From positions 62,001-126,000 of the forward strand of contig DATNNM010000016.1 of assembly GCA_035601835.1 (NCBI GenBank): a DNA stretch of 64,000 nucleotides, written 5' to 3'. The stretch is from Candidatus Tumulicola sp. (GTDB taxonomy: Bacteria; Vulcanimicrobiota; Vulcanimicrobiia; Eremiobacterales; Eremiobacteraceae). Position numbers and translations under genes: made by a program. The notes under the pieces were generated by a model. The model worked only from the letters and a program-made list of their open reading frames with translations, had not been told where the DNA came from and did not search any database. Positions 4,567 through 52,593 of this stretch are shown here, piece by piece. How positions within the stretch are numbered: position 1 is the first letter of the stretch; each line of letters opens with the position of its first letter.

Positions 4567-5919
4567 TTAGTGCGTTACGGGGGCTGGGGCCGGCGGCGTG
4601 AGTTGGTCGCGCACGAACGACACCGCGCGCTGCAATTGCGAGTCGAGCAGCAGATTGCCGATGTTCTCCACCTTGACGTCGGGCACTTCGATGTCCGGCT
4701 TGATGCCGATCGTATTGATGTCGCGTCCGCTCGGCGTGAGGTAGCGCGCGGTCGTGATCTTGATGGCGCTGCCGTCCGGCAGCGGGTAGATCGTCTGCAC
4801 TTCACCCTTGCCGTAGGTCTTCGTGCCGATGAGCACGCCCGTACCCGAATCCTGGATCGCCCCGGAGGCGATCTCCGATGCGCTGGCGGTGTAGCCGTTG
4901 ACCAGCACCGCGAGCGGCCGCGACGCCACGGCGCTGTCTTGAGCGTTGATGGTCGTCAGGGGTTTTTGGCGCTGGTCGATCTCCACGATCGGCCCGTCAG
5001 CGACGAATTTGGACGCCACGTCGATCGCCGCGTTCAAATAGCCGCCGCCGTTGTTGCGCAGGTCGAGGATGTAAGCCTTGACCCCCTGTTTCTCCAGGCC
5101 CGCGAGCGCCCGCGTGATCTCGTCGCCGGTGGTCGTGCCGAAGACCAGCACGCGCACGTAGCCGACGTGGTCGTCGATCATGCGAGTCAGGACGCTCGGC
5201 TCGTGGATGAAATCGCGCGTGACTGAAAACACCAGTTGCTTGTCCGCGCCGACGCGCTGCACGACCAGCTGCACCTTCGTGCCGGCTTTGCCGCGGATGA
5301 GTTTGCTGTCGTCGACGGTGCTCAGGCCTTTGGTCGGTGTTCCGTCGATCGTCAGGATGACGTCACCAGGCTGCATGCCCGCCTTTGCGGCCGGGCCGCC
5401 GTCGAGCACTTGCACGATCAGCAGCGATTTCGTCGCCGGGTCCACATCGATGACGACGCCGACGCCAGGGAAGCCGCCGCCCTCAAGGTTTTCGTTGAGG
5501 CTGCGGTACTCTTGGGGCGTCATGAACACGGTCCAGCGATCGCGCAGCGACTGCATCATGCCGGAGATGGCGCCGTACGCGAGCTCGCGCTCGCCGACGG
5601 TGCGCCCGTACTCGCGATTGACGACTTTCAGCTCTTCATTGAGCGCCGCGATATCGGCGCTGTCACTGCCCAGGTGGCGGACCACCGGCACGTGGGTGGG
5701 ATCACCGCCCTTGTTCTTCACCGCGGTCTTGAAGCCGGATACGGCGCCGTCCAGCAGCGCCTGATAGTCGACCTGTTTGTAGAAATCGATCGTGGCGCGC
5801 AGGAACGAGTAGTCCAGCATGGACTTGTTGACGTCGTCTGCAGCGCGCGCGGGCGCTGCGAGCAACGAAACGCCGGCGAGGATCGCGGCGAAGAGCGTGC
5901 CGGTGATGAGTTTTTTCAT
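4567..5919 (-). CDS. S41-family carboxyl-terminal processing peptidase, second copy
   Basis: A 450-residue exported serine peptidase. An N-terminal signal peptide (about residues 1-26, ending APARAAD) is followed by a helical region, a PDZ domain starting near GVGVVIDVD (about 155-235), and the S41 catalytic core. The nucleophile Ser is in GYTASASEI (about 345) and the general-base Lys in TKTYGKG (about 368). Members trim C-termini of periplasmic proteins or control peptidoglycan hydrolases. The start overlaps the stop of the preceding paralogue as TAATG. The two copies share much of the active-site region and look like a tandem duplication, but their N-terminal regions differ, so substrates may differ. 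Confidence 0.92.
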   Translation of the reverse strand: MKKLITGTLFAAILAGVSLLAAPARAADDVNKSMLDYSFLRATIDFYKQVDYQALLDGAVSGFKTAVKNKGGDPTHVPVVRHLGSDSADIAALNEELKVVNREYGRTVGERELAYGAISGMMQSLRDRWTVFMTPQEYRSLNENLEGGGFPGVGVVIDVDPATKSLLIVQVLDGGPAAKAGMQPGDVILTIDGTPTKGLSTVDDSKLIRGKAGTKVQLVVQRVGADKQLVFSVTRDFIHEPSVLTRMIDDHVGYVRVLVFGTTTGDEITRALAGLEKQGVKAYILDLRNNGGGYLNAAIDVASKFVADGPIVEIDQRQKPLTTINAQDSAVASRPLAVLVNGYTASASEIASGAIQDSGTGVLIGTKTYGKGEVQTIYPLPDGSAIKITTARYLTPSGRDINTIGIKPDIEVPDVKVENIGNLLLDSQLQRAVSFVRDQLTPPAPAPVTH

Positions 5920-7364
5920 TATGGGTTCCTAGTGTCGAGCGCGATCTGCTTGCGCAGGTAATCGACCGCAGCTTGGAGCTGGACGTCCTTGCCTTGGAGG
6001 CCGACAATCTTCGGATCCATCGGCACTCTGATGTTGGGCTCGATACCGCGCTTGTCGATGTCGCGGCCGTCGGGCGTGAGGTAGCGCGCGGTCGTGATCT
6101 TGATGGCGCTGTTACCGGGCAAATCGTAGATGGTCTGCACGACGCCCTTGCCGTAGGTCTTGGTGCCGAGCAGCACGCCCACGCGCGAGTCCTGGATGGC
6201 GCCCGCCGTGATCTCCGAGGCGCTGGCCGAATACTGGTTCACCAGCACGACGAGCGGCTTGGGCTGGATCGCGTCCTGATACGCGTCTTGGGTCTCCACT
6301 TGGCCGCGACGGTTGACCGTCGAGACGATCGGCCCGTCGGCGATGAACTTGGACGACACCTGCACCGCCGCGTCGAGCAAGCCGCCGCCGTTATTGCGCA
6401 GATCGAAGACGATCGCTTTTGCGCCCTTGGCCAAAAGTTTGTCCAGCGCATCGGTGACTTCGCGTTCGGAGGTGTCGCCGAAGTCATAGAGTTGCACGTA
6501 GCCGACGTCTTTACCGATGAGATGGTAGGACACCGACGGCACGTGGATCTGCTCGCGCACGACGGTGTACGTCTTTCGCGCCGAGCCCTTGCGTTCGATG
6601 TCGAGTCTGACGGCCGTGCCGACCTTGCCGCGGATCAGCCCCATGACCGAGTCGAGGTCGATAGGCTTGGTCTCGTGCCCGTCGACGGCGACGATGATGT
6701 CGAGCGGTTTCAGACCGGCGCGCGACGCCGGGGTGCCTTCAATCGGGTTGAGGACTTCGACGTCTTTGGTCTTGGGGTCTTTGCCGATATAGATGCCGAT
6801 GCCGCCGAAGTCGCCGCCGCGCATGAGCTCGTTCAACGATCTCACTTCGCGCGGGCTCAAGAAGACGGTGTATGGATCGGAAAGCGTTCCGAGCATGCCG
6901 CTGACGGCGGCCGTGGTCAGATCGTCAAGACTGACGCGCGCGCCGTAGCGGTCAAATGCGGCGTTGAGGATCTTGTTGGCGGCCGCCGCGTCGGTGTCGG
7001 GATCACCCGTGGCGGCATCGGGCTGCGGCAGCTGGCCGTCGATCTTCTTCTTCTTCAAGAACGCGAGCAGGCCGCGCCGTTCGCCCGTGAGCAAGCCGGC
7101 GTCGCTCACCGGCTTGTAGAAATTATCGTTGACGCGCTTGAGCGAAAGGTCAAGGATCTGCAGATCTTGACTGCGGTCTTGGGGGTTTGCCGGATTCGCG
7201 CCGATGGTGAAATCGTGGCGCTCGTTTCCGAGTCTGAACGCCAGCAGGGGATACTGCGAAGCTGACGGGCGCGGCAGCACATTGGCGCGCTCGGCGACCA
7301 GCACTGCGCCGGCGAGGATGACAACGGCTGCTAAAACGGTAGCGGCAAGGCGGGTGAAGGACAC
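5919..7364 (-). CDS. ctpA: S41-family carboxyl-terminal processing peptidase (CtpA-like)
   Basis: A 481-residue enzyme beginning at GTG, with AAAGGA immediately upstream. The N-terminus has one hydrophobic segment (about residues 8-25), acting as signal or anchor. A PDZ domain follows at about 190-270 (GIGIYIGKD onward). The S41 dyad is Ser in QYSASASEI (about 380) and Lys in TKTYGKG (about 404). It lies directly downstream of the EnvC-like gene, a common neighbourhood for CtpA proteases that regulate cell-wall hydrolases. The 141-bp gap upstream probably carries its promoter; no clear -35/-10 pair could be assigned. Confidence 0.9.
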   Translation of the reverse strand: MSFTRLAATVLAAVVILAGAVLVAERANVLPRPSASQYPLLAFRLGNERHDFTIGANPANPQDRSQDLQILDLSLKRVNDNFYKPVSDAGLLTGERRGLLAFLKKKKIDGQLPQPDAATGDPDTDAAAANKILNAAFDRYGARVSLDDLTTAAVSGMLGTLSDPYTVFLSPREVRSLNELMRGGDFGGIGIYIGKDPKTKDVEVLNPIEGTPASRAGLKPLDIIVAVDGHETKPIDLDSVMGLIRGKVGTAVRLDIERKGSARKTYTVVREQIHVPSVSYHLIGKDVGYVQLYDFGDTSEREVTDALDKLLAKGAKAIVFDLRNNGGGLLDAAVQVSSKFIADGPIVSTVNRRGQVETQDAYQDAIQPKPLVVLVNQYSASASEITAGAIQDSRVGVLLGTKTYGKGVVQTIYDLPGNSAIKITTARYLTPDGRDIDKRGIEPNIRVPMDPKIVGLQGKDVQLQAAVDYLRKQIALDTRNP

Positions 7365-7505: not shown

Positions 7506-8744
7506 TCACAATCGGCTCAGTGGATTCACAGGAACGCCGTTGACGCGGATCTCAAAATGCAGGTGCGGCCCTGTGGCATAGCCCGTCGCCCCGACCCGGC
7601 CGATCAGCTGTCCTCGTTGGACGTTCATGCCCTTGCTGACGAGCATCGACGAACAGTGCGCGTACAGCGTGGATAGCCCGTTGCCGTGCGCCACCACGAT
7701 CGCTTCGCCGTATCCGCCATACCAATCGGCCATGATGACGGTGCCGTCGTCCGAGGCGACGATCGGGTCGCCGTAGGAGGCCGCGATGTCGATGCCCGTG
7801 TGCATGCGATAGCCGCCGAGAATCGGATGCCAGCGCATGCCGAATCCCGACACGACCGGACCATTGACGGGCCATATGAAGTGGCCCGAGCCTTCAAGCG
7901 GCTCTTTCGGAACGGGCAAGCCTGCGGCGATGGCGGCTGCGCGGCGCGCTTGCCACGCGGCGAGTTTCGCTCGGCGAATGGCTTCTTGCGCTTGACGCTC
8001 TTGCTCGCGGATGAGGTCTTGCAAGCGCGCTTCTTCGGCTGCCGTCAGTTCTTCGAGCTGGTTCACCTGCTCGGCTATCTGATTGCGCTGGACCTGCGCG
8101 GCATACAGCAGCTCGCGACGCCGATCGGCCAACTGCGCCAGCTGTCCGCGCTTGGTCTCCTGGTCCTGGCGCTGCGCGTTCAGATCGGCCTGGGTTTGGG
8201 TGAGATCCGCGACGATCTTCCGATAGCGCTGCTCCTCGGCGTCGATGCGCGAGATGAGCGCCGTATCGGCGCGCACCACCATGGTCAAGAAATCCCAGCG
8301 CTCGATGAAATCGTCGAACGAGGTGGCGCTGAGCAGCACGTCGAGATACGAGGTCGCGCCGCGCTCGTACATGTCGACCATGCGGCGGTCAAGCGCCCCG
8401 GTGTGGCGGTCGAGGCTGGCGCGCGTCGCCGCGAGTTGGCCTTGACGGACGGCCAGCCGTTTCTCGGTGAGCGCGATCTGGCCGTCGAGGTCGCCCAGCG
8501 CCGAGGTCACGCGCGTGATGGCGCCGTTGGTGTCGTCCAGTTGCGATGAGATCGTCTGCACTTTGTAGCGCGCCTGGTGCAGCTGACCGCGTTTTTGCTG
8601 CAGCTTGTGACGCGTGGCCTCGATCAGCTGCTGTTTCTGCTTGATTTTCTCGGAGAGCGGCACCGGCGGTTGCTTCGGGGCCGCGGCATCGCCGGGCCTC
8701 GGGATCAGCAGCAGGAGCGCGAGGGCGAGGACGACCCGCTTCAC
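7506..8744 (-). CDS. envC: EnvC-like murein hydrolase/activator (coiled coil + M23 LytM domain)
   Basis: A 412-residue exported protein. The preferred start is GTG at 8744, which overlaps the ftsX stop as GTGA and is followed directly by a signal peptide (RVVLALALLLLIPRPGDA); the open frame upstream of it has no protein character. Long heptad-rich coiled coil covers about residues 30-270, then an M23 domain. Zinc-ligand motifs are present: HTGIDI and GPHLHFEI, plus YAH. E. coli EnvC has lost these ligands and only activates amidases, so this copy may be a catalytically active endopeptidase. Its position after ftsEX fits gating of septal wall cleavage by FtsEX. Confidence 0.9.
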   Translation of the reverse strand: MKRVVLALALLLLIPRPGDAAAPKQPPVPLSEKIKQKQQLIEATRHKLQQKRGQLHQARYKVQTISSQLDDTNGAITRVTSALGDLDGQIALTEKRLAVRQGQLAATRASLDRHTGALDRRMVDMYERGATSYLDVLLSATSFDDFIERWDFLTMVVRADTALISRIDAEEQRYRKIVADLTQTQADLNAQRQDQETKRGQLAQLADRRRELLYAAQVQRNQIAEQVNQLEELTAAEEARLQDLIREQERQAQEAIRRAKLAAWQARRAAAIAAGLPVPKEPLEGSGHFIWPVNGPVVSGFGMRWHPILGGYRMHTGIDIAASYGDPIVASDDGTVIMADWYGGYGEAIVVAHGNGLSTLYAHCSSMLVSKGMNVQRGQLIGRVGATGYATGPHLHFEIRVNGVPVNPLSRL

Positions 8745-9625
8745 GCGGTCTCTACGAAGCGGCTGACCGAGATCCAACTCGAGAACATGCCGATGAGTCC
8801 GCCGATGAGGAGCAGTTCCAATGCGATGTGCCCGACGGGCACCGCCGAGAGGTCGAGCGGGAGGAACGGCAGATTCAGGGCAAGCTTGGGAACCAGCGCA
8901 TGGTAGGTCGGCCATAACACCGCCAGCCCCACGGCGGCGCCGATCAATCCTGACAGCACGCCTTCGAGCACGAACGGCCATCGGATGGTCCAGCGCGTCG
9001 CGCCCACCAAGTGCATGATATTGATCTCGCGTTGGCGCGCGAACACGGTGAGCCGGATGGTGTTGTAGATGATCAGCGCGTTCGCGATCAGCAGCAGCAC
9101 GATGATGCCGATACCGATGTAGCCGAAGACCGTCTCTGCGCGCAATAATTTCTGCGTGTGCTGACTGCCATAGTTCACATACGATACTTCGGGCCGGCTC
9201 GTGAATTCTTGCGCGACGACCGGCACGTTCTCGGGATCGATCGTATGGATGATGATCGAGTTGGGCAGCGGGTTGCTGTTGATCAGCCCGAGATCGACCT
9301 GACCGTGCAGGCGTTTGCGCAGATCCGCGAGCGCCTGATTCTTGCTGACGAAGCGCGCGCTGTCCACGCGTGGATCGATCTGCAGCGCGTGGAGCATCGC
9401 GGTGATGGTCGGGCCCTCGACTTCATCCTTGAGATAGACCGCGATCTCGAGCTTGCTGACCACGCTCTTCATGACGATGTCGGACGAACTGCGCAGGAAC
9501 AGGAAGACGCCGAGGACGATGATCGAGATGGCGACCGTGCCGATAGCGGTGACGGCCATGGCGGCGTTGCGGGTGAAGTTCTGAGCGACCTCGCTCCAGA
9601 AAAAGCGGACTTTACCCCAATCCAA
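8741..9625 (-). CDS. ftsX: Cell-division protein FtsX
   Basis: A 294-residue polytopic protein with FtsX topology: cytosolic N-terminus, first membrane helix (about residues 22-46), a periplasmic loop of about 120 residues, then three C-terminal helices (about 165-195, 220-245, 265-290). The periplasmic loop is the part that docks the EnvC-type activator encoded next. The cytoplasmic loop RQREINIMHLVGAT is the family's coupling-helix region that contacts FtsE. Its ORF overlaps the ftsE stop by 14 nt and the envC start by 4 nt, so the three are translationally coupled. Confidence 0.95.
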   Translation of the reverse strand: MDWGKVRFFWSEVAQNFTRNAAMAVTAIGTVAISIIVLGVFLFLRSSSDIVMKSVVSKLEIAVYLKDEVEGPTITAMLHALQIDPRVDSARFVSKNQALADLRKRLHGQVDLGLINSNPLPNSIIIHTIDPENVPVVAQEFTSRPEVSYVNYGSQHTQKLLRAETVFGYIGIGIIVLLLIANALIIYNTIRLTVFARQREINIMHLVGATRWTIRWPFVLEGVLSGLIGAAVGLAVLWPTYHALVPKLALNLPFLPLDLSAVPVGHIALELLLIGGLIGMFSSWISVSRFVETA

Positions 9626-10301
9626 CGTGGTACCGGCCCCGTTCTTCGTCGTGCGCGATGCGCCCGTGGATGAGGCGCACGACGCGGCGGCGCATGCGAT
9701 CGACGCTGGCCTGATTGTGGGTGGCGACGACGACGGTCGTGCCTTTGGCGTTGATGCGCGCCAAAAGCGCCATGATCTCGCTGGAGGTCTCCGGATCGAG
9801 GTTACCCGTCGGTTCGTCGCACAGCATGATCAGCGGATTGTTCACGAGCGAGCGCGCGATGGCGGTGCGTTGCTGCTCGCCGCCCGACAACTCGTGCTGG
9901 AACATCTTGCTCTTGTGCGCGATGCCGACCAGTTCGAGCGCGCGCGGCACGCGGCGCATGACGTCGCGCGAACTGGCGCCCGTCACCTGTAGCGCGTAGG
10001 CGACGTTCTCCCACACCGTTTTTTGGCGCAGCAGCTTGAAGTCTTGAAAGACGACGCCGACTTTGCGGCGCAAGAACGGGACCTGCGATTCAGGTAGACG
10101 GGACAGAGGGCGGCCGTCAACGGTCACATCGCCCGCAGTGGGACGGACTTCGCGATAGATGAGCTTGAGGATGCTCGACTTGCCCTGTCCGGTGCTGCCG
10201 ACGAGAAAAAGAAATTCGCCTCGATTTATTTGGAGGTTGATGTCGGAGAGGGCGTGGACGCCGTTAGGGTAGACCAGCTTGACGTCCTCAAACAGAATCA
10301 C
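9612..10301 (-). CDS. ftsE: Cell-division ATP-binding protein FtsE
   Basis: An ABC ATPase of about 229 residues partnering FtsX. Walker A GSTGQGKSS, signature LSGGEQQR, Walker B LIMLCDEPTG and the H-loop VATHNQ are all present. The start is taken as GTG at 10301 because the protein then begins VILFEDVKLVYPNG, matching FtsE N-termini. The frame is open further upstream to 10445, but that extension is encoded by a REP element and has no family counterpart; an ATG at 10346 is the alternative. It heads the ftsEX-envC-ctp operon, with the REP cluster at 10359-10398 in its promoter region, shared with the divergent acyl-CoA dehydrogenase. Confidence 0.93.
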   Translation of the reverse strand: MILFEDVKLVYPNGVHALSDINLQINRGEFLFLVGSTGQGKSSILKLIYREVRPTAGDVTVDGRPLSRLPESQVPFLRRKVGVVFQDFKLLRQKTVWENVAYALQVTGASSRDVMRRVPRALELVGIAHKSKMFQHELSGGEQQRTAIARSLVNNPLIMLCDEPTGNLDPETSSEIMALLARINAKGTTVVVATHNQASVDRMRRRVVRLIHGRIAHDEERGRYHVGLG

Positions 10302-10358
10302 TCTGGAGTCTATGTTTCGCGGTCGGGTTCCGCCGCCCTGTGGCATGCCAGGCTTGTA

Positions 10359-10398
10359 TGTGGTATGCCGGACTTTAGTCCGGCTCGAGCGAAGCTCG
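10359..10398 (+). repeat. Compound REP in the divergent ftsE / acyl-CoA dehydrogenase promoter region
   Basis: The tail TGTGGTAT is followed by the perfect palindrome GCCGGACTTTAGTCCGGC (10367-10384) and then a second hairpin, CGAGC-GAA-GCTCG (10386-10398). The first is the arm variant also seen at 2535-2552. The second resembles the TTCCGAGC-GAA-GCTCGGAA family at 29541-29595. It ends 8 bp before the dehydrogenase ATG and occupies the only intergenic space between two divergent genes. Confidence 0.85.
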
Positions 10399-10406
10399 AC
10401 GCGGCC

Positions 10407-11555
10407 ATGGACTTCGATCTGACGTCCGATCAACTGGATGTGCAAAAACTATGTCGCGACTTCGCGGAGGGCGAGGTCGCGCCGCACGCGCAGGAGTGGG
10501 ATGAGCAGTCGCGCTTCCCGCTCGACGTCGTGCAAAAGATGGCCAAGCTCGGGCTCATGGGCCTGCCGTTTCCTGAGAAATACGGCGGCGCCGGCGCCGA
10601 CACGGTTTCGTACGCGCTGGCGGTGATGGAGATCGGGCGAGCGGATGCGTCGGTCGGCATCACCCTTGCCGCGCACGTGTCGCTTGGCACCGCTCCGTTC
10701 TTCATGTTCGGTTCTGAGAAGCAGCGTCAGGAGTATCTGCCGCGGCTGACCTCCGGGGAATCGTTGTGGGCGTTCGGACTCACCGAACCGCAGGCGGGCT
10801 CCGACGCCGGTGCGACCAAGACCACTGCGACGTTGAACGGCGGCGCGTGGGTCATCAACGGCTCGAAGTGCTTCATCACCAATGCGGGGACGCCGATCAC
10901 AGGCGGAGTCACGATCACCGCGGTGACCGGGCGCGGCGACGGCGACCGGCCGGAGATCTCGAACATCATCGTGCCGACGGACACGCCGGGTTATTCGCGC
11001 GCCAAAGCCTATAAGAAGATGGGCTGGCGCGCCTCGGACACGCGCGAGTTGACGTTTCAGGACGCGCGCGTGCCCGAAGAGAACGTGCTCGGCCAGCTCG
11101 GTCAGGGCTTTCGACAGTTCTTGGACGTGCTCGACGGCGGGCGCATCAGCGTCGGGGCGCTTTCGGTCGGGCTGGCGCAAGCCTGTTACGACGCGGCGAG
11201 CAAGTATGCGAAAGAACGCCAGCAGTTCGGCCAGCCGATCTCCAAGTTCCAGGCCATACAATTTCAACTCGTGGACATGGCCGTGGAGATCGAGTTGGCG
11301 CGCACCGCGGTGCTCAAGGCCGCATGGCTCAAGGATCGCGGCCGCGAGTTCGCGCTCGCGGCGGCCATGTCCAAGCTCTACTCAGGTGAAGTGTCGCGCC
11401 GCTGCGCCAACGCCGCCGTGCAGATCCATGGTGGTTACGGCTTTATGGACGAGTATCCGGTGTCGCGCTACTGGCGCGATTGCAAGATCAACGAGATCGG
11501 CGAAGGCACGAACGAAGTGCAGCGCATGGTGATCGCCCGCCTCCTGGGTTTCTAA
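10407..11555 (+). CDS. Acyl-CoA dehydrogenase
   Basis: A 382-residue FAD enzyme that oxidises acyl-CoA to trans-2-enoyl-CoA and passes electrons to ETF. The start MDFDLTSDQL is chosen because it is the standard family N-terminus; the upstream open frame runs through a REP. Family motifs: FGLTEPQAGSDA (FAD/substrate contacts), the helical C-terminal domain with RQQFGQPISKFQAIQF, and IHGGYGFMDEYPVSRYWRD followed by EIGEGTNEVQ, whose Glu is the usual catalytic base position. Length is typical. It stands alone on the plus strand, divergent from ftsE. A second acyl-CoA dehydrogenase is at 19447-20667. Short/branched-chain specificity is likely but not shown. Confidence 0.93.
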   Translation: MDFDLTSDQLDVQKLCRDFAEGEVAPHAQEWDEQSRFPLDVVQKMAKLGLMGLPFPEKYGGAGADTVSYALAVMEIGRADASVGITLAAHVSLGTAPFFMFGSEKQRQEYLPRLTSGESLWAFGLTEPQAGSDAGATKTTATLNGGAWVINGSKCFITNAGTPITGGVTITAVTGRGDGDRPEISNIIVPTDTPGYSRAKAYKKMGWRASDTRELTFQDARVPEENVLGQLGQGFRQFLDVLDGGRISVGALSVGLAQACYDAASKYAKERQQFGQPISKFQAIQFQLVDMAVEIELARTAVLKAAWLKDRGREFALAAAMSKLYSGEVSRRCANAAVQIHGGYGFMDEYPVSRYWRDCKINEIGEGTNEVQRMVIARLLGF

Positions 11556-11570: not shown

Positions 11571-11665
11571 TTGTAGTGCCAGGTTTGTAGTGCCGGGGCT
11601 TTAGCCCCGGTTCTTGTGCTGCCGCGTCTGTAATGCTTGTTGTAGTGCCGGGGCTTGAGCCCCGG
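11571..11665 (+). repeat. Cluster of REP copies left of the RAYT gene
   Basis: It contains a partial tail copy (TTGTAGTGCCAGG, 11571-11583), a full REP with tail TGTAGTG and palindrome CCGGGGCTTTAGCCCCGG (11586-11610), and a second full copy (11641-11665) whose centre is TTGA instead of TTTA. Both full copies point the same way. The GTAG in the tail is the tetranucleotide typical of RAYT-recognised REPs. The last copy ends 8 bp before the RAYT stop codon. Confidence 0.93.
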
Positions 11666-11672
11666 TATATCC

Positions 11673-12128
11673 CTAATACCACGGGTCGAGGATCCCAGAA
11701 TACGGGTAATCGCGAAAGTCTACAACAAGCCCGGCGCGAATCGGATTCTCGAGCGTGTACCGAATGGTCGCGTCGCTCTTCTCATATTCCCGCACGATGT
11801 GGTCGTGATAGCCGCGTTGCCATAAGAATGAGTGACCCGACATTCTGCACCTATGCAAGATTGTGGCCTTGAGGGTGCCGACGATATCGCTGAGAGGGCG
11901 TGAATCGCTTTGCAGCCGGGCCACCATGTGGATGTGGTCGGGCATGACGCAATATGCGTGGAGGCCGTACCACTCGCGTTCACGGTACCTCAAGATATGG
12001 TCGCAGGCGATGATCGCGGCCGCGGGCGTGCGGAAGATCGGCTGCCGGTTGCTGACGCGAAACGTTATAAAGTACGAACCCGGAGTCGTATAATCGAAGC
12101 CCTTCAGCCGAGGACTGCCGTCAGCCAT
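11673..12128 (-). CDS. REP-associated tyrosine transposase (RAYT, IS200-like Y1)
   Basis: About 151 residues from ATG at 12128 (MADGSPRLKG); an in-frame ATG at 12146 is an alternative. The fold is the Y1 transposase family (PF01797). GSYFITFRVSNRQPIF forms the first strand, YCVMPDHIHMV carries the HUH metal-binding histidines, and FLWQRGYHDHIVRE carries the region of the nucleophilic tyrosine. These enzymes nick and join single-stranded DNA at REP palindromes. RAYTs are usually single-copy domesticated genes rather than selfish insertion sequences. It is flanked by inverted REP copies (11586-11665 and 12173-12197), the expected gene-plus-substrate layout, which strongly supports the call. Confidence 0.93.
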   Translation of the reverse strand: MADGSPRLKGFDYTTPGSYFITFRVSNRQPIFRTPAAAIIACDHILRYREREWYGLHAYCVMPDHIHMVARLQSDSRPLSDIVGTLKATILHRCRMSGHSFLWQRGYHDHIVREYEKSDATIRYTLENPIRAGLVVDFRDYPYSGILDPWY

Positions 12129-12172
12129 GGTTCGTTCTTCAAGCAACGCGGTATCGTTGTCAAGGGGTTGAA

Positions 12173-12197
12173 CCGGGGCTAAAGCCCCGGCACTACA
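12173..12197 (-). repeat. REP right of the RAYT gene, inverted relative to the left copies
   Basis: CCGGGGCTAAAGCCCCGG plus CACTACA, the reverse complement of the left-hand copies. The RAYT is thus enclosed between outward TGTAGTG tails, as in REPIN/RAYT loci. It sits 44 bp upstream of the RAYT start, within its probable promoter region. Confidence 0.93.
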
Positions 12198-12248: not shown

Positions 12249-13298
12249 TTAGTGTGTGGTGTCCAGGAACAGGCCGAAGCCGCTCAGCGACACTTGCGCG
12301 TCAAAGATCACGCGACGATTGGGGATCGCGTTAAAGGCGCCGCTCGCGGTGGTCGCGTTCGGCAGCACGTCGACCGCCTGCGCGTCGTAGACGAACAGCA
12401 AGTCGCGAACCGCGTCGTACGCGAGCCCGAGCGGACCCGCGAAGTTGGTGATCGTCTGCGCGTGCGAGGCCGAGCCATTCAGGGTGCTGGCCGTCATGAG
12501 CACGTCGACTTGCAGGTGCGATCGCTCTGCGACCCACAGAACATCCGTCGTCGGATTGTAGGCAAGACCGTCGGGTGAGAACAGGCCGGTGATCTGGCGG
12601 TTCGCGGTCGCCGCATAGTTGGTGTGTGCGATCGCAGCGGCGTTTGCGCCGGCGCCAAAGGCGTCAAAAACGCCGATGACGCAGCCATTGTCGCTCACGA
12701 ACAGCCGGTCGTGCACGGGGTCGTAATACATCTCTTGCGGGCGCGGCGCGCCCGATACGCAGCCGTCGGTCATAGTGAGCGTCGCGGTGCCGGCCGGCGT
12801 GGTGTTGCCGCCTTGCCCGAGGGTCGAAGCGCTTGCGTAGATCTGTACCGTATTGCTGGTGTTCTGCGCGACGATCAGCAGGTTGTGCGTGACATCGAAC
12901 GTGGCCGCGCCTTCCTGGTTCGTCAGCGGCACGGTGAAGTCCGGATTCACGTTGGTCTTGGTCAATGCCGTCGTCCAGACCGAAATCCGATTGTTGGTCT
13001 GGTCCGGGTACCACAAGACGTCCGCGGCGATTCCGTAGATGATGTCCGGGTTGGCGATGTCCGCGGTCGGGTACACGTTGCTGGCAAGAGCTCCGCCGTT
13101 AATTCCCGACGCTCCCTTATATGCGCGCACCGTGCGCGACGTCGCATCTTGCACGTACAGCGTGTCGGGCGCCACCGTCGCCGACGAGGTCGGGGTCGGA
13201 GTCGGCACGGGGGGCGTCGTGGTCTTGGAGCACCCGGCGATGACGAGCACGGCCAGCATGCCGGCGGAGAGCATGGCAAAACCCAGACGCGGACTCAT
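12249..13298 (-). CDS. Lipoprotein with beta-propeller-like repeats
   Basis: About 349 residues from ATG (MSPRLGFAML). A hydrophobic leader ends in the lipobox LVIAGCSK, so the mature protein should be acylated on Cys. A Pro/Thr-rich linker follows, then repeating segments such as YYDPVHDRLFVSDN, AYNPTTDVLWVAE and AYDAVRDLLFVYD, each like one NHL/YVTN propeller blade. No catalytic motif is visible, so it is probably a binding or scaffold protein in the periplasm or cell surface. AAGGAG is 12 nt upstream, a little distant. The open frame extends upstream to 13352 but starts best at the leader. It lies 228 bp after the TonB receptor on the same strand, separated by a strong terminator. Confidence 0.7.
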   Translation of the reverse strand: MSPRLGFAMLSAGMLAVLVIAGCSKTTTPPVPTPTPTSSATVAPDTLYVQDATSRTVRAYKGASGINGGALASNVYPTADIANPDIIYGIAADVLWYPDQTNNRISVWTTALTKTNVNPDFTVPLTNQEGAATFDVTHNLLIVAQNTSNTVQIYASASTLGQGGNTTPAGTATLTMTDGCVSGAPRPQEMYYDPVHDRLFVSDNGCVIGVFDAFGAGANAAAIAHTNYAATANRQITGLFSPDGLAYNPTTDVLWVAERSHLQVDVLMTASTLNGSASHAQTITNFAGPLGLAYDAVRDLLFVYDAQAVDVLPNATTASGAFNAIPNRRVIFDAQVSLSGFGLFLDTTH

Positions 13299-13429
13299 CA
13301 AGCGGGCGATCTCCTTAGCTGTTGAAGAGGTTGAAGCGGGGCTGGAACGCACGTGCGCCGGCTCGATTCGGCCGGCGGCGCACCCCGCGCGTGATGTCCG
13401 GGGCTTCGACCAGAAGCACGGGGCGACCT

Positions 13430-13454
13430 CCGGGGCTAAAGCCCCGGCACTACA
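13430..13454 (-). repeat. REP copy between TonB receptor and lipoprotein gene
   Basis: A perfect CCGGGGCTAAAGCCCCGG palindrome with a CACTACA tail. About 32 bp to its left, CCGGGGCTTCGACC (13398-13411) looks like a decayed half copy. Both lie in the 228-bp gap, on the lipoprotein-promoter side of the receptor terminator. Confidence 0.93.
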
Positions 13455-13526: not shown

Positions 13527-16500
13527 TTAGAGCTTGACGTTGACGTTGAGCGACGCGTTGAACGGCGACGTCGCCACGTTCGGCAGATACGGGTACTTCA
13601 CCAGCGGTTGCAACACGTTACCGGGGTTGTAGAAGTTGCCGACCGACGGGACGTTGCCGCTGATCACGCCGTACGAACACCAGTGGCGATCATTGTTCAC
13701 CCACGCCTGCTTCGATCCGCCGAAGCAGGTGTTGATGACGTTCGCCAGGTTCAACTGGTACGACACGCGTGACGTCGCGTCATAGCTGATCGCGAAGTGG
13801 CCAGAGAACTGGCTGGGCTCCGTGAACGAGCCAGGCGCGTCGAACACGTGCGTCGACGTATCGGGAATGATCAGGAAGTTGGAGCAGTTGGTTGCGTCTG
13901 CCGCCGTTCCCGTGCCGCCGTACGGATAGCGCGGGTCGGTGGGGGCGACTGCACCCAATGTCGACGCTCCGCAGGTGTTCGGATCGAATCCGACGGTGCC
14001 TTCCGGAGCGCCGTACTTCGTCCCCGAGTGGAACTGGAACGCGGGGATGAACGCCCATTTGTCGTGCTTCATCTGCAGCACCAGCGACGCCACGTGCGGC
14101 GTGATGAAGCTCACCTCGGAGAGCTGGATGCCCGCCGGGATGATGTCGTACGGCGTGTAGGAGCCGTTCGGATCGAACAGCTTCTGCGCCGGGGCGTTGA
14201 AGTACGGATTCGCGATACCACCGGGGGTCGCATTCGCGTTGACGCCGCCGTCGACGCCGCACATGCTCGTCGCGTTCGTCGATGAGACCGCGCCGACGCA
14301 TGCCGACGTGAACGAGTTGTAGTGTTGGATGTCGCTATTGATCGAGGCCAGCACCGTCGAGCCGTTGGGCAGCGGTGAGTACTTGATCAGGCTGTGCGTA
14401 AAGGTGTACGAGAACTGGCCCGCCCAGCCGTTGTTGTTGAAGTTGCCGAAGTTCAGCTCGAACTCGACGCCGCTCGTCGTTTGTTTTCCGGCGTTGAGGC
14501 CGGAGACGAACGCCGTCTTCGGGTCGATGAAGAGCTGCTGCACCTGGTCAGAAGTCGCACGGTAGAACGGCGTCAACTTGAACGACGTCTGCGTGTTCTT
14601 GAAGTGGTGCTCCAGCGACAGGTCGTAGTTGTACGAGATGGAGGGCCGGATGGTATGGTTCGGCGAGTTGTAGCCGAACTTGAAGAACAGTCCCCCGATG
14701 AGCTGACCGAACAGGTTTTGCTCCAGCGTGTTGTACTGCTGGAAGGCGGCGTTCGCGGGCTGCGAATACCGGCCTGCCGAGAAGCGCAACACGTCGTCCG
14801 GGTTCAGCGTGTAGGTCCCGCCGATGCGGGGTTCAGTTTCCGGATACGTCACCGAACCGCCGTTGGCCGTTCCGTTGACCATGGTCGCCGGGATGAACGG
14901 GTTGCCGCCGGCAGACGCGACGAGCGTCGAGCACGGCTGCGTGATGGAGATCGCCCCGACCACTCCGACAGGCGGGTTTGTTTTGTCAAACGGCTGTCCG
15001 CCTTGGAACGTCGGCGCGTAGCACTGCGACGCGTTCCACGCGGCAAGCCAGAAGTCGCGAGCCCCTCCGCCCGTAGGCGTGAACTCGAACTTGTAGACGT
15101 TTTCCCGCAGACCGAGGTTGAGCGTCAGTCTGTCGGTTGGCTTCCACGTGTCCTGGATCGACGCCGCGTAGTAGCGCGGTGTGACCGTGTTGAACGTCGC
15201 CCACGGACCGGTTTCGCCGGCGATCCAGGCGCAAGCGCCGGCGCAGGCCCCACCAGTGTTCGGATTCGGGAGGCCGCTCGCCGCGATGTTGTCGAGCTCG
15301 AGGCTTACGCCCGTGTCATCGGTATTCTCGCACGAGCGCGCGATGCCGCCGAAGTAGCAGATGCCGGTCAGCGGATTGGCTGCATTGACCCTGAAGGCCG
15401 CCTGTTGGCGTGCACCGCTGAACGAGTTCCTCTGCTGCGTGTTGTTGTCGCGCACGGTGCTCGCCGTCGAGTACCCTACGTCCACGTTGAGGAGATGTTT
15501 CGGCGAAAGCTGACTCACGTACGAGACGGAGCCGCCGCGCGTGTGCGTCCACAGTTCGTAGTCGTCCGGACAGCAGCCCACATAGTCATTGTTCAATGTC
15601 AGTGGACCGTGCAAGAACCACCACGAGTAGAAGATGTAGCCGTAGACGCGCAGGTACGAGTTGGTGCCGATGTTGCGCTGATACTGCAGTTTGTAGATGC
15701 CCTGGCCGTTGTCCGCAGTGTCACGCTTGTTGTCCGGCACGTTGCCGCCCAGGCCCGCTTGGCCTTCGCTCGGATACGCGTAGGGTACGACATTACCGGC
15801 TTGGGTAGGATCGGCGCCCAAGAAGAGCTGGCCTGGCGCCACGTTGTTCCACTGGCGAGCTATGCCGGGAGTGAACGCAGCCTGACCGTTGTTGCCGAAG
15901 CCCGGGCCGCCGTCAAACGTGTTGCCAACGTTATTGGCGAAGAAACTCGGGCCGCCCCAGTCGTTCGTCGAGCTGTAGTAGTACGTGTACAGTTGGAACA
16001 CGTCGTACAGCAGCTGGATGTCGTCTTTGCCGCTGTCACGATGGTGCGGGATGCCGATGTGGAAGTTGAACACGTTCTCGCGATCGGTCAACTTCGCCGG
16101 AAATGTCATCGTGTACGGGCCCATGACGTAGCCGCCGGGGCCGACTGGGAATGCCCCGAAGTACGCTCTGTTCGCATAGCAGCCGGAGAACCCGCTGCCC
16201 GTGCCACCGGGGCCGGTAGTGCAACCTGCGCCGTCATTGGTGCCGTCCCACGGCACGCCGTAGCTCTGCGTGATGCTGGCGCCGTTGCTGTTGTCGAAAT
16301 ACCGCGGGCCGGAGTCGACGAGACCGATGCCCACGTAGTACGAGAAGTTGCGGTTGGGCGTGGCCCCACCGAACTCGATGTTGGCCTTGTTGTAAAGACT
16401 CGGCCCGCCGATGCCAAAGCTCGCGCTTGCGAAGCCTGGATACGTGCCGCTCTTGATCACTTGGTTGATGTAGCCGGCGAGGCCCTGCGACTCTGAGTTG

Positions 16501-17189
16501 GCGGGCGACGCGCCCGTGTACAACTGCAGTTCCTGTTGGCCGAGCGCCGAAAGATTGGTGGTCGGATAGTTATCGAACGACCGGTTGACCGGCACGCCGT
16601 CAAACTCATAGCCGACTTGGTCGTAGTCTCCGCCGCGGATGTAGACGGTCTGATACCAGCCCGACTGTCCGGGAGGAACGTACGCGCCGGGGAGCGCTGC
16701 GATCGCGGAATAACCTTGATCGCCGCCGCCGCCGCCGCCGAGCACCGCCGTACGCGCTTGCGCCTTCTCGTTCACCGAGTAGACGTCGGCGGTCGTGCCG
16801 GGCTTGACGAGGTCTGCAGACGAGCGACTGGTGATAACGCCGAGAGTCCGGACGAACTTCTTCGCTTGAAGATTGACCGTCTGGGTGTTGTCGGCGAATA
16901 CCGTGACGCCGCGTTGCACGAGAGTCTCGATCACGTTCTCTTCCGATACCGTCACGGTGTACGTGTCCGGCACCAGAGAGATCATCGAGAAGTGACCTCC
17001 ATTGTCCGTGGTCGCCGTTAGGGTTTGACTCGGCGACGAGGCGGTCACTTTGGCATTGGCGACTGGTGTCGTCGTGCCCTCAAGGAACACCGTGCCTGAT
17101 AGCGATCCGGTTGTGCCCGCCAGTGCCCATGTTCCCTGGCATAGCAAAACCGCTAAAGCTAAGAAGGCAATTCTCAAATAACCTTTCAT
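13527..17189 (-). CDS. TonB-dependent outer-membrane receptor with N-terminal carboxypeptidase-regulatory domain
   Basis: A 1220-residue Oar/SusC-like receptor. It has a signal peptide (about residues 1-25), then a carboxypeptidase-regulatory-like Ig domain (about 28-108, GTVFLEGTTTPVANAKV and the TTDNGGHFSMI turn). A plug follows (about 130-250, with IRGGDYDQVGYEFDGVPVNRS), then a long beta-barrel ending NASLNVNVKL. The Gly6 run near residue 150 comes from a short GCC microsatellite. Such receptors import large substrates by TonB-driven transport; the ligand is unknown. A 188-bp leader separates it from sucD, and a terminator follows. There is no adjacent SusD homologue, so it is not a classical polysaccharide locus. 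Confidence 0.92.
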   Translation of the reverse strand: MKGYLRIAFLALAVLLCQGTWALAGTTGSLSGTVFLEGTTTPVANAKVTASSPSQTLTATTDNGGHFSMISLVPDTYTVTVSEENVIETLVQRGVTVFADNTQTVNLQAKKFVRTLGVITSRSSADLVKPGTTADVYSVNEKAQARTAVLGGGGGGDQGYSAIAALPGAYVPPGQSGWYQTVYIRGGDYDQVGYEFDGVPVNRSFDNYPTTNLSALGQQELQLYTGASPANSESQGLAGYINQVIKSGTYPGFASASFGIGGPSLYNKANIEFGGATPNRNFSYYVGIGLVDSGPRYFDNSNGASITQSYGVPWDGTNDGAGCTTGPGGTGSGFSGCYANRAYFGAFPVGPGGYVMGPYTMTFPAKLTDRENVFNFHIGIPHHRDSGKDDIQLLYDVFQLYTYYYSSTNDWGGPSFFANNVGNTFDGGPGFGNNGQAAFTPGIARQWNNVAPGQLFLGADPTQAGNVVPYAYPSEGQAGLGGNVPDNKRDTADNGQGIYKLQYQRNIGTNSYLRVYGYIFYSWWFLHGPLTLNNDYVGCCPDDYELWTHTRGGSVSYVSQLSPKHLLNVDVGYSTASTVRDNNTQQRNSFSGARQQAAFRVNAANPLTGICYFGGIARSCENTDDTGVSLELDNIAASGLPNPNTGGACAGACAWIAGETGPWATFNTVTPRYYAASIQDTWKPTDRLTLNLGLRENVYKFEFTPTGGGARDFWLAAWNASQCYAPTFQGGQPFDKTNPPVGVVGAISITQPCSTLVASAGGNPFIPATMVNGTANGGSVTYPETEPRIGGTYTLNPDDVLRFSAGRYSQPANAAFQQYNTLEQNLFGQLIGGLFFKFGYNSPNHTIRPSISYNYDLSLEHHFKNTQTSFKLTPFYRATSDQVQQLFIDPKTAFVSGLNAGKQTTSGVEFELNFGNFNNNGWAGQFSYTFTHSLIKYSPLPNGSTVLASINSDIQHYNSFTSACVGAVSSTNATSMCGVDGGVNANATPGGIANPYFNAPAQKLFDPNGSYTPYDIIPAGIQLSEVSFITPHVASLVLQMKHDKWAFIPAFQFHSGTKYGAPEGTVGFDPNTCGASTLGAVAPTDPRYPYGGTGTAADATNCSNFLIIPDTSTHVFDAPGSFTEPSQFSGHFAISYDATSRVSYQLNLANVINTCFGGSKQAWVNNDRHWCSYGVISGNVPSVGNFYNPGNVLQPLVKYPYLPNVATSPFNASLNVNVKL

Positions 17190-17377: not shown

Positions 17378-18262
17378 TCAGGCCCGCGCGTGCGCTCGGA
17401 ACGCTACATCCACAAGTCCGGGAATGTCGGCCGGGCTGTCCGCTACGGGGACGCCCACCTTCCGGAACGCCTCGATTTTCGCTTTAGCCGTGCCGCCGCT
17501 GCCGCTCACGATGGCGCCGGCGTGACCCATGCGCTTTCCTTCGGGCGCCGAACGGCCGCCGATGAACGCGATGAGCGATTTGGTGAATTCGCGCCGCTGG
17601 ATCATCGCCGCCGCGTCTTCTTCATCCGTGCCGCCGATCTCACCGACCAGCACCACGGCTTCGGTCGCGGGGTCGGACTGGAAATCGGCCAGACAATCCA
17701 CGAAGACGGTGCCGATGATCGGATCGCCGCCGATGCCCACGCACGTGCTTTGCCCGATGCCCGCGCGCGTCAGCTGATCGACGATCTCATAGGTGAGCGT
17801 GCCGCTGCGCGAGATCAGACCCACCCGGCCTTGCGAAAACACGTGGCCCGGCATGATGCCGGCAAGCGACTCGCCGGGAGTGACGACGCCCGGGCAGTTG
17901 GGGCCGATGACGCGCACGCCTTTCGGTATGACGGCCATGACCTTGAGCATATCGTGCACCGGGATGCCTTCGGTGATGCAGATGATCAATGCTATGCCGG
18001 CATCGGCCGCTTCCAAGATCGCGTCCGCCGCCGCCGGCGGCGGAACGAAGATGACGCTGGCGTTCGCGCCGGTCTTGGCGCGCGCCTGAGCTACGCTATC
18101 GAAAACGGGGAATTGATCGACGGTCTGACCGCCCTTGCCGGGCGTGACGCCGCCGGCGAGCTTCGTGCCGTACGCGCGCATCCGGTTCGCGTGATACAAT
18201 CCCTCGCGCCCGGTGATCCCCTGCACGATGACGATGCTGTCTTTGTTGAGGTAGATCGACAA
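17378..18262 (-). CDS. sucD: Succinyl-CoA synthetase alpha subunit
   Basis: A 294-residue CoA-binding subunit that forms succinyl-CoA from succinate with SucC in the TCA cycle. The N-terminal Rossmann CoA domain contains [12 protein letters not shown], and the phosphohistidine is in [13 protein letters not shown]. The start is TTG at 18262 ([15 protein letters not shown]), backed by GGAGGA about 7 nt upstream; a nearby ATG is out of frame. The last codons (VAFRAHARA) overlap a TGCGCTCGGAACGCTACA repeat remnant at 17391-17408, so the C-terminal tail was probably rewritten by a REP. It is separated from sucC by a REP at 18280-18304. Confidence 0.95.
17391..17408 (-). repeat. Half copy of the TGTAGCG-tailed hairpin repeat in the sucD 3' coding end
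   Basis: TGCGCTCGGAACGCTACA matches the right half and tail of the hairpin repeat at 29541-29565. Here it encodes the last residues of SucD. The partner arm is missing or degenerate. Confidence 0.55.
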
Positions 18263-18279: not shown

Positions 18280-18304
18280 CCGGGGCTAAAGCCCCGGCAC
18301 TACA
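18280..18304 (-). repeat. REP copy between sucC and sucD
   Basis: CCGGGGCTAAAGCCCCGG with a CACTACA tail. It fills most of the 51-bp sucC-sucD gap, just before the sucD ribosome site. In the transcript it would form a hairpin between two subunits needed at 1:1, so it may stabilise the upstream part or modulate coupling. Confidence 0.93.
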
Positions 18305-28005: not shown

Positions 28006-28025
28006 CACGGACCTAAAGGTCCGTG
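28006..28025. repeat. REP-like palindrome, CACGGACC arm variant, between convergent genes
   Basis: CACGGACCTAAAGGTCCGTG has perfect 9-bp arms around AA. It shares the CTAAAG centre with the other copies but has entirely different arms. It lies between the stop of the bactofilin-like gene (28002) and the stop of the serine hydrolase (28040) and could act as a bidirectional terminator hairpin. Confidence 0.8.
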
Positions 28026-28039
28026 GGTACGGTCTAGGG

Positions 28040-29515: not shown

Positions 29516-29595
29516 CCGGGGCTAAAGCCCCGGCACTACATCCGAGCTTCGCTCGGAACGCTACATTTTTTCCGAGCTTCGCTCGGAACGCTGCA
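29516..29595 (-). repeat. Array of three REPs between serine hydrolase and M3 peptidase
   Basis: One copy of CCGGGGCTAAAGCCCCGG-CACTACA (29516-29540) is followed at once by TCCGAGC-TTC-GCTCGGAACGCTACA (29541-29565). A second copy follows (29571-29595), ending GCTGCA. The last two have 7-bp arms and share the tail TGTAGCG. They fill almost the whole gap between the hydrolase start and the peptidase stop. Confidence 0.92.
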
Positions 29596-31695: not shown

Positions 31696-31720
31696 CCGGG
31701 GCTAAAGCCCCGGCACTACA
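31696..31720 (-). repeat. REP copy between gctB and the M3 peptidase
   Basis: A perfect CCGGGGCTAAAGCCCCGG palindrome with a CACTACA tail, 19 bp after the gctB stop and in the promoter region of the M3 peptidase. Confidence 0.93.
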
Positions 31721-44852: not shown

Positions 44853-44877
44853 TGTAGTGCCGGGGCTTTAGCCCCGG
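44853..44877 (+). repeat. REP copy between the LptD-like gene and the epimerase
   Basis: TGTAGTG-CCGGGGCTTTAGCCCCGG in the forward orientation. A bare TGTAGTG (44839-44845) just upstream is a tail-only remnant. The REP ends 21 bp before the epimerase ATG. Confidence 0.93.
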
Positions 44878-48826: not shown

Positions 48827-50073
48827 GACAATGCCCGAACCAGCTGCCGCGATGCCGGCGGATCGTCGCCGAGCGTCAGCGACGCCGCGAGCCGCTCGAG
48901 ATCGAGAAGAGCCGCTCCGGTTTCGAAGACGTCGATGACCGGCTCGCCGCGCTCGACCTTGTCACCCGGCCGCTTGCGCAATCGCAATCCGGTACGGCGC
49001 GCCTGTTCGATGGGCAAGCCTGCCTTGCCCGCCGCGACGAGCTCGCCCAGCGTTCGCGGGTCAATGCTTCGGACGTAGCCGCTGCTCGGCGCCGCGATGA
49101 AGCGCGCCGGCTTGAAGGCGCGGTCGAACTCGTCCAGACGTCCGCCCTGCGCCGCCGCCATCTCGGCGAACTTCCGAAGGCCGGAGACCGGGGCTAAAGC
49201 CCCGGCACTACATCCGGCACATTCGAGCATCGCGGCGGCGATCGCGTGCGCCACCGAGCGCAAACGCGGTGACCCGCCGCCGCTCAAAGCCGCAAGGGCT
49301 TCGTCAAGCTCCAGCGCATCGCCGACGGAGTCCGCAAGCGGCTCGTTCATGTCGGTCAAGACCACGCGCACGCGCTTGCCCAAGCGCTCGCCGACGTCGC
49401 GCATGACGCGGCCCAGCTCCTCCGCCTCCGCGGGCGTCTTCATGAACGCTCCAGCGCCGTGCTTCACGTCGAGCACGATGGCAGGCGCCCCGCCCGCGAT
49501 CTTCTTGGAGAGGATGGACGCGGCGATGAGCGGCACGCTCGCGATCGTCGCGGTGCGGTCGCGCAAGGCGTAGAACTTCTTGTCGGCCGGCGCGAGCGAG
49601 GCCGTGGCAGCCGCCACGGCGCAACCGACGCGCAGCACCTGTGACTTGAACTCCTCCAAGCCCAGGTCGACGCGCAATCCGGGAATGCACTCAAGTTTGT
49701 CGAGCGTGCCGCCGGTGTGGCCAAGCGCTCGGCCGGACAATTTCGCGACCTTCGCGCCCGCCTCGGCTGCCAGCGGCACCGCGACCAGCGTCACGGCGTC
49801 ACCGACACCGCCCGTCGAATGCTTGTCCACCACGGATGCGGCGCCCCACACAAGCGTATCGCCCGATGCCGCCATTGAGGCGGTGAGGTGCGCCGTCTCC
49901 GCAAGCGTCATGCCGGTCATGCAGACCGCCATCAACCAGGCGGCGACAGGAGCGTCATCGATCTCGCCGCGGGTGAAAGCGGAGACCAACGCTTCGATCT
50001 CCTCACGCGAGTGCTCTAGGCCCGCCCGTTTTTTTTCGATGAGCGAGCGCATAGCGGCCGCGGAGAGCGTCAC
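48823..50073 (-). CDS. deoA: Pyrimidine-nucleoside (thymidine) phosphorylase with in-frame REP
   Basis: A 416-residue enzyme that splits thymidine/uridine with phosphate to base and (deoxy)ribose-1-phosphate. SVVDKHSTGGVGDAVTL, KLSGRALGHTGGTLDKLE and DVKHGAGAFMKT are the family's signature motifs. Between AAAMLECAG and LRKFAEMAAAQGG, residues [11 protein letters not shown] are encoded by a REP (49188-49212); known homologues have about 25 variable residues here, so the repeat replaced part of a surface segment rather than the active site. The frame is intact. It overlaps its neighbours punA and rmlD by 4 nt at each end. Confidence 0.92.
   Translation of the reverse strand: MTLSAAAMRSLIEKKRAGLEHSREEIEALVSAFTRGEIDDAPVAAWLMAVCMTGMTLAETAHLTASMAASGDTLVWGAASVVDKHSTGGVGDAVTLVAVPLAAEAGAKVAKLSGRALGHTGGTLDKLECIPGLRVDLGLEEFKSQVLRVGCAVAAATASLAPADKKFYALRDRTATIASVPLIAASILSKKIAGGAPAIVLDVKHGAGAFMKTPAEAEELGRVMRDVGERLGKRVRVVLTDMNEPLADSVGDALELDEALAALSGGGSPRLRSVAHAIAAAMLECAGCSAGALAPVSGLRKFAEMAAAQGGRLDEFDRAFKPARFIAAPSSGYVRSIDPRTLGELVAAGKAGLPIEQARRTGLRLRKRPGDKVERGEPVIDVFETGAALLDLERLAASLTLGDDPPASRQLVRALS
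49188..49212 (-). repeat. REP copy inside the pyrimidine phosphorylase gene, in frame
   Basis: CCGGGGCTAAAGCCCCGG with the CACTACA tail, unaltered, within coding sequence. The complete palindrome plus tail reads CSAGALAPV with no stop, because this reading frame is one of those open through the element. Confidence 0.95.
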
Positions 50074-52568: not shown

Positions 52569-52593
52569 TCCGCGCTTCGTTCGGAACGCTACA
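52569..52593 (-). repeat. TGTAGCG-tailed hairpin repeat abutting metF
   Basis: TCCGCGC-TTC-GTTCGGA followed by ACGCTACA, a slightly mutated version of the family at 29541-29595. The tail ends 3 bp before the metF GTG, so the repeat may have supplied or displaced the start region. No ribosome site is visible between them. Confidence 0.6.

Follow-up and report, generated by a model that had tools for sequence, protein, structure and literature searches.

A RAYT transposase and regionally polarized REP hairpins in a Candidatus Tumulicola genome

The 64,000-nucleotide stretch of Candidatus Tumulicola DNA analyzed here (the window) encodes a REP-associated tyrosine transposase (RAYT) set among copies of a short repetitive extragenic palindrome (REP). 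One REP type, REP-A, reads TGTAGTG-CCGGGGC-TTTA-GCCCCGG, a tag followed by a hairpin with a 7-bp stem and the loop TTTA (-9.1 kcal/mol). Three more types, B, C, and D, go beyond those described in an earlier note on this DNA; B and D occur in the window. The RAYT gene and the REP copies are arranged as follows.

11673-12146, minus strand: open reading frame of the RAYT, a TnpAREP-like HUH/Y1 transposase (profile and structure matches); 11673-12128 and 151 amino acids when read from its ATG
11572-11585, plus strand: REP fragment, by sequence, with the tag TGTAGTGCC plus AGGTT (half a stem), abutting the REP-A at 11586
11586-11610, plus strand: REP-A, perfect, downstream of the RAYT stop codon
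11641-11665, plus strand: REP-A with a single change in the loop (TTGA), 7 bp from the RAYT stop codon
12173-12197, minus strand: REP-A, perfect, inverted, upstream of the RAYT start
13430-13454, minus strand: REP-A, perfect
17384-17408, minus strand: degenerate REP-B-like copy
18280-18304, minus strand: REP-A, perfect
28007-28032, minus strand: REP-D-like copy with the degenerate tag CGTAC
29516-29540, minus strand: REP-A, perfect, abutting a REP-B head-to-tail
29541-29565, minus strand: REP-B (TGTAGCGTTCCGAGCGAAGCTCGGA), abutting the REP-A at exactly 25 nt
29571-29595, minus strand: REP-B, one mismatch
31696-31720, minus strand: REP-A, perfect
44853-44877, plus strand: REP-A, perfect
49188-49212, minus strand: REP-A, perfect
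52569-52593, minus strand: degenerate REP-B

The transposase scores 109.5 bits against NF047646 (REP_Tyr_transpos), for which the curated cut-off is 80, matches the Pfam domain Y1_Tnp, and aligns with PDB entry 4er8, deposited as TnpArep, at an E value of 1e-8. Its HUH residues, H65 and H67, are invariant in 39/39 aligned homologues, while the catalytic tyrosine Y124 and the asparagine N128 are both kept in 36/39; in our reading of the structure-match alignment, Y124 pairs with Tyr115 of 4er8. The gene is present once in the genome (2.57 Mb, 18 contigs). The family score, the HUH, Tyr, and Asn residues, the flanking REPs with a GTAG/GGAG foot, and a high-copy cognate REP together identify a RAYT. 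Two other candidates were rejected: identity as an IS200/IS605 insertion sequence, as evidenced by 14.5 bits against NF033573 (far under the cut-off of 55) and the single gene copy, and plasmid-borne spread, given that the closest plasmid homologues are merely ~30% identical. Adjoining the RAYT gene is a lipoprotein-like open reading frame of 367 amino acids without a Pfam match (12249-13352, minus strand).

Nine copies of REP-A occur in the window at ≤3 mismatches, eight of them perfect, where 100 shuffles gave an expectation of zero. The earlier note had correctly recognized a Y1-type transposase with HUH residues as a RAYT, placed it between two forward REPs (11586 and 11641) and one inverted copy (12173), and seen the same REP recur through the window. 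Its eight perfect copies stand too, although they span 37.6 kb (11586-49212) rather than 45 kb, and the TGTAGTG that it took for a tail sits instead at the hairpin's 5' foot. An Rfam search of the window returned no match.

Across the genome, REP-A reaches 237 copies at ≤2 mismatches against one RAYT gene, a comparison that the earlier note had called for; a reversed control pattern found none, and REP-B has 106 copies. Scanning 861 kb de novo for TGTAG followed by a hairpin yielded 192 matches, versus 0-53 for unrelated control tags, and brought types C and D to light. The control tags TAGTG and GATGT gave 134 and 70 matches in the same scan, the former being high because TAGTG forms part of the REP-A foot. 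In every type, the conserved unit runs from TGTAG to the end of the hairpin, and the flanks are unconserved save for a preference for A immediately 5'. Two-sided stem changes keep pairing in 10/10 cases, and 27 changes are one-sided and unpaired. Within a sample of about 1.3 Mb, perfect copies make up 131/172 of REP-A, 35/63 of REP-B, and 6/48 of REP-D. REP-A, which is also the type beside the RAYT, is therefore the least diverged and by that measure the youngest; because 131 of its copies are identical to the consensus, its spread looks recent. The REP-D core (CGGACC-TTTA-GGTCCG), by our own comparison, is common to REPs of one relative (G007) and nearly so to those of another (G012), so REP-D may be an old type. 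The earlier proposal that this RAYT is the active or formerly active source of the REPs is likely for REP-A but less secure for types B, C, and D, which flank no RAYT here.

The distribution of both partners among relatives ties them together. A RAYT is encoded in 10/14 genomes of the family (this one included) and in 0/47 class-level relatives. REP-A is absent from 60 relatives, except for two degenerate matches in G006, which carries a stop-interrupted RAYT, and none was found in the 51 relatives that lack a RAYT. Moreover, about 330 kb from four RAYT-less genomes contained no recurrent tagged hairpin. Conversely, 12/14 RAYT loci of relatives adjoin tagged hairpins, most of them flanked on both sides in inverted orientation and with sequences that differ from one RAYT to the next; the other two loci (L119 and L125) offered no clear case. 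Because relatives with a RAYT have tagged hairpins of their own while the sampled ones without it show none, the link between REP and RAYT proposed in the earlier note holds; equal occurrence of the palindromes in RAYT-less relatives, which it had named as grounds for abandoning the link, was not what we found.

Those relatives' REPs that were searched are abundant solely in their own lineages. G007 has three RAYTs and three different REPs, two of which (17 and 54 copies) are confined to it. The G012 REP has ~255 copies, and its congener G002 shares it at 36; densities in G007 and G012 are not comparable, because both were sampled partly in the vicinity of known REPs. The REPs of G003 and G010 number ~475 and ~313, each half of the listed count because the pattern is symmetrical. 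In these two genomes, REPs flanking the RAYTs at L121, L123, L127, and L128 have a foot, GGGA or GTA, that overlaps the stem (GCGGTCGAG...CTCGACCGC) and are followed by a conserved CGCGG; these REPs number in the hundreds in each genome. Two RAYTs, at L120 (G006) and L129 (G009), have in-frame stops and are apparent pseudogenes, with tagged hairpins remaining alongside.

We consider it very probable that the system is a REPtron, that is, one chromosomal RAYT plus the REPs on which it acts; the RAYT would insert these into single-stranded DNA exposed on one replication strand. RAYT enzymes act solely on the tagged strand of a folded, single-stranded REP (PMC8266576), and the related IS200/IS605 elements target the lagging-strand template (reviewed in PMC6006769). 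Here, the RAYT would recognize the strand whose short, perfect hairpin carries the tag TGTAG at its foot, its tyrosine would cleave single-stranded DNA beside that hairpin, and the 25-nt REP units would be rejoined at other sites, which would make the RAYT the mover of the REPs. Types B to D may be substrates that this RAYT used earlier, or remnants left by RAYTs since lost. Insertion would use the single-stranded lagging-strand template, with the tag-hairpin strand pointing along the fork region by region.

Neighboring REPs nearly always lie head-to-tail. Among consecutive REPs <300 bp apart in a 1.26-Mb sample, 78 pairs lie on the same strand and 6 on opposite strands, and on this count an organization as inverted REP doublets (REPINs, or bacterial interspersed mosaic elements) was rejected. 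The most frequent start-to-start distance is exactly 25 nt, indicating that the units abut, and all four types mix within arrays; the stretch at 29516-29595, with a REP-A, a REP-B, and a second REP-B, is one such mixed head-to-tail array. Head-to-tail arrays are likewise the rule in the REP listing of G012. Arrays at 25-35 nt spacing could come from replication slippage or template switching at hairpins, with the RAYT as a bystander. As an account of REP amplification this is very improbable, however, because slippage cannot disperse 237 near-identical copies across contigs, leaves the abutting pairs of mixed A, B, C, and D types unexplained, and does not predict that REPs are confined to RAYT-bearing genomes.

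REP orientation is also polarized over long distances. It was scored in stretches covering about half of the genome, partly picked for REP content, a choice that bears on density but should leave orientation untouched; genes were called by a simple codon-usage script rather than a standard gene finder. Plus-to-minus counts are 24:2 on contig C8, 0:23 on C9, 2:33 on C10, and 3:52 on C15. Since these four polar contigs were chosen after seeing the data, all contigs were tested jointly at the cluster level, and orientation proved heterogeneous among them, both over all loci (clusters collapsed; permutation p 2e-4) and when only loci flanked by convergent or divergent genes were counted (p 2e-4, likewise by permutation). 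Positions 60001-140000 of C15 (L147-L150) have the top REP density (69 per 100 kb) and are almost completely polarized.

Transcription might set this orientation, for example, if REPs inserted into the non-template strand displaced when genes are transcribed. Between co-directional genes, REPs do point with the genes at 67/83 loci. Yet in the polar contigs, REPs between convergent or divergent genes, where the flanking genes lack a net direction, follow the contig in 46/46 cases. The regional gene direction has a larger coefficient for REP orientation than the local one (4.4 versus 0.5), and where the two conflict, orientation goes with the regional majority, the local gene being followed at only 8/19 loci between co-directional genes and 4/14 loci inside genes. 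A transcriptional origin is thus improbable.

Gene organization and base composition on the regional scale do track REP orientation. With clusters collapsed, orientation in convergent and divergent gaps matches the regional gene majority at 49/66 loci (p 1e-4). The fourfold-site T/A skew is 0.037 for genes with the REP polarity and 0.187 for genes against it (p 5e-9), and over 60 stretches the skew correlates with REP orientation (rho -0.50, p 5e-5), as it does when just the non-polar contigs are considered (rho -0.45, p 0.003); these skew p values are optimistic, as adjacent stretches are not independent. A regional REP polarity that does not depend on the direction of local genes and covaries with gene-strand bias and T/A skew is, therefore, well supported.

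The majority of genes usually lie on the leading strand. Because the strand with tag and hairpin has the same direction as the majority of genes, it would be on the lagging-strand template. We tentatively propose, at somewhat less than even likelihood, that REP orientation is set genome-wide by replication direction via strand-specific insertion into that template, so that REPs record the direction of the fork. Alternatively, the RAYT might spread REPs without strand preference, and later selection might remove wrongly oriented copies if the tagged hairpins served as terminators or as polar sequences in replication or chromosome segregation. Polarity peaks where REPs are densest (C15), the few REPs near dnaA on C3 point either way, and REPs are enriched in convergent gaps (59 convergent and 18 divergent REPs, versus 83 and 96 background intergenic gaps), all of which selection could accommodate. 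However, a strand preference is already expected from the chemistry by which HUH transposases insert, and REPs inside predicted genes of the polar contigs also follow contig polarity (20/21), so we regard selection as rather unlikely, if the strongest competitor to insertion on the lagging-strand template.

Several observations weigh against a replicative REPtron. We saw no empty site, strain polymorphism, excision, or binding for the REPs or the RAYT, and none of the types B, C, and D has its own RAYT in this genome. Contigs C11 (30:23) and C18 (6:8) lack clear REP polarity, and GC skew, with values near zero, shows no correlation with REP orientation. The assignment of REPs to a replication strand would rest on the gene majority, with the contigs unordered; mapping them onto a complete class-level relative (G014) failed to split leading from lagging genes (32:17 and 31:19, respectively), the order being scrambled. 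Small-subunit rRNA, as a marker, was not found in the assembly, and a gradient of REP density away from dnaA is suggestive only, given the unordered contigs.

Elsewhere in the window, two tandem paralogous S41 C-terminal processing peptidases, CtpB-like and with PDZ domains, are encoded on the minus strand (4567-5919 and 5919-7364), beside genes for an M23 peptidase (7506-8981), FtsX (8741-9625), and an FtsE-like ABC protein (9612-10445); as judged from sequence, these form a putative divisome/peptidoglycan cluster. A TonB-dependent receptor (13527-17189) is the one feature that agrees with a diderm envelope, as would be expected if the DNA came from the uncultured diderm phylum of the earlier note.

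The REP/RAYT pair is real and ordinary in kind; the polarity and the head-to-tail layout go beyond the finding of the earlier note. The work extends such pairs to a family of mostly draft genomes, in which the partners clearly turn over from genus to genus. A link between transposition and lagging-strand single-stranded DNA has so far been best documented for IS608 and ISDra2. If the polarity is replicative, it would be, to our knowledge, the first such pattern for single REPs and would give direct genomic support to the long-suspected connection of RAYTs with lagging-strand single-stranded DNA, testable on finished REP-rich chromosomes. Our incomplete coverage of the literature found no report of replication-strand polarity for REPs in general.

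The system resembles the RAYT/TnpAREP REPtrons of E. coli, Pseudomonas, and Stenotrophomonas (PMC2817692, PMC3733652, PMC8266576) in its single-copy HUH/Y1 enzyme, its GTAG-foot hairpins inverted around the gene, its REP type specific to RAYT and lineage, and its mostly intergenic dispersal; the perfect palindrome and short loop are those of the Stenotrophomonas/Marinomonas REP group. It differs from them in its strong regional strand polarity, and from published REP families, which favor inverted pairs, in that close REPs are head-to-tail. The nearest precedent is Pseudomonas fluorescens SBW25, in which tandem GI-GIII arrays, five in forward orientation near 2 Mb and six in reverse near 4 Mb, are also head-to-tail, mix REP groups, and take opposite orientations on opposite sides of the chromosome (PMC3116915). 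However, those arrays are few and their units are spaced 72 and 112 bp, whereas here abutting units follow one another every 25 nt and the polarity extends to single REPs. Finally, IS200/IS605 elements such as IS608 and ISDra2 share the HUH/Y1 chemistry on single-stranded hairpins and target the lagging-strand template (PMC6006769), but here there is one gene copy and there are no transposon ends to mobilize it.
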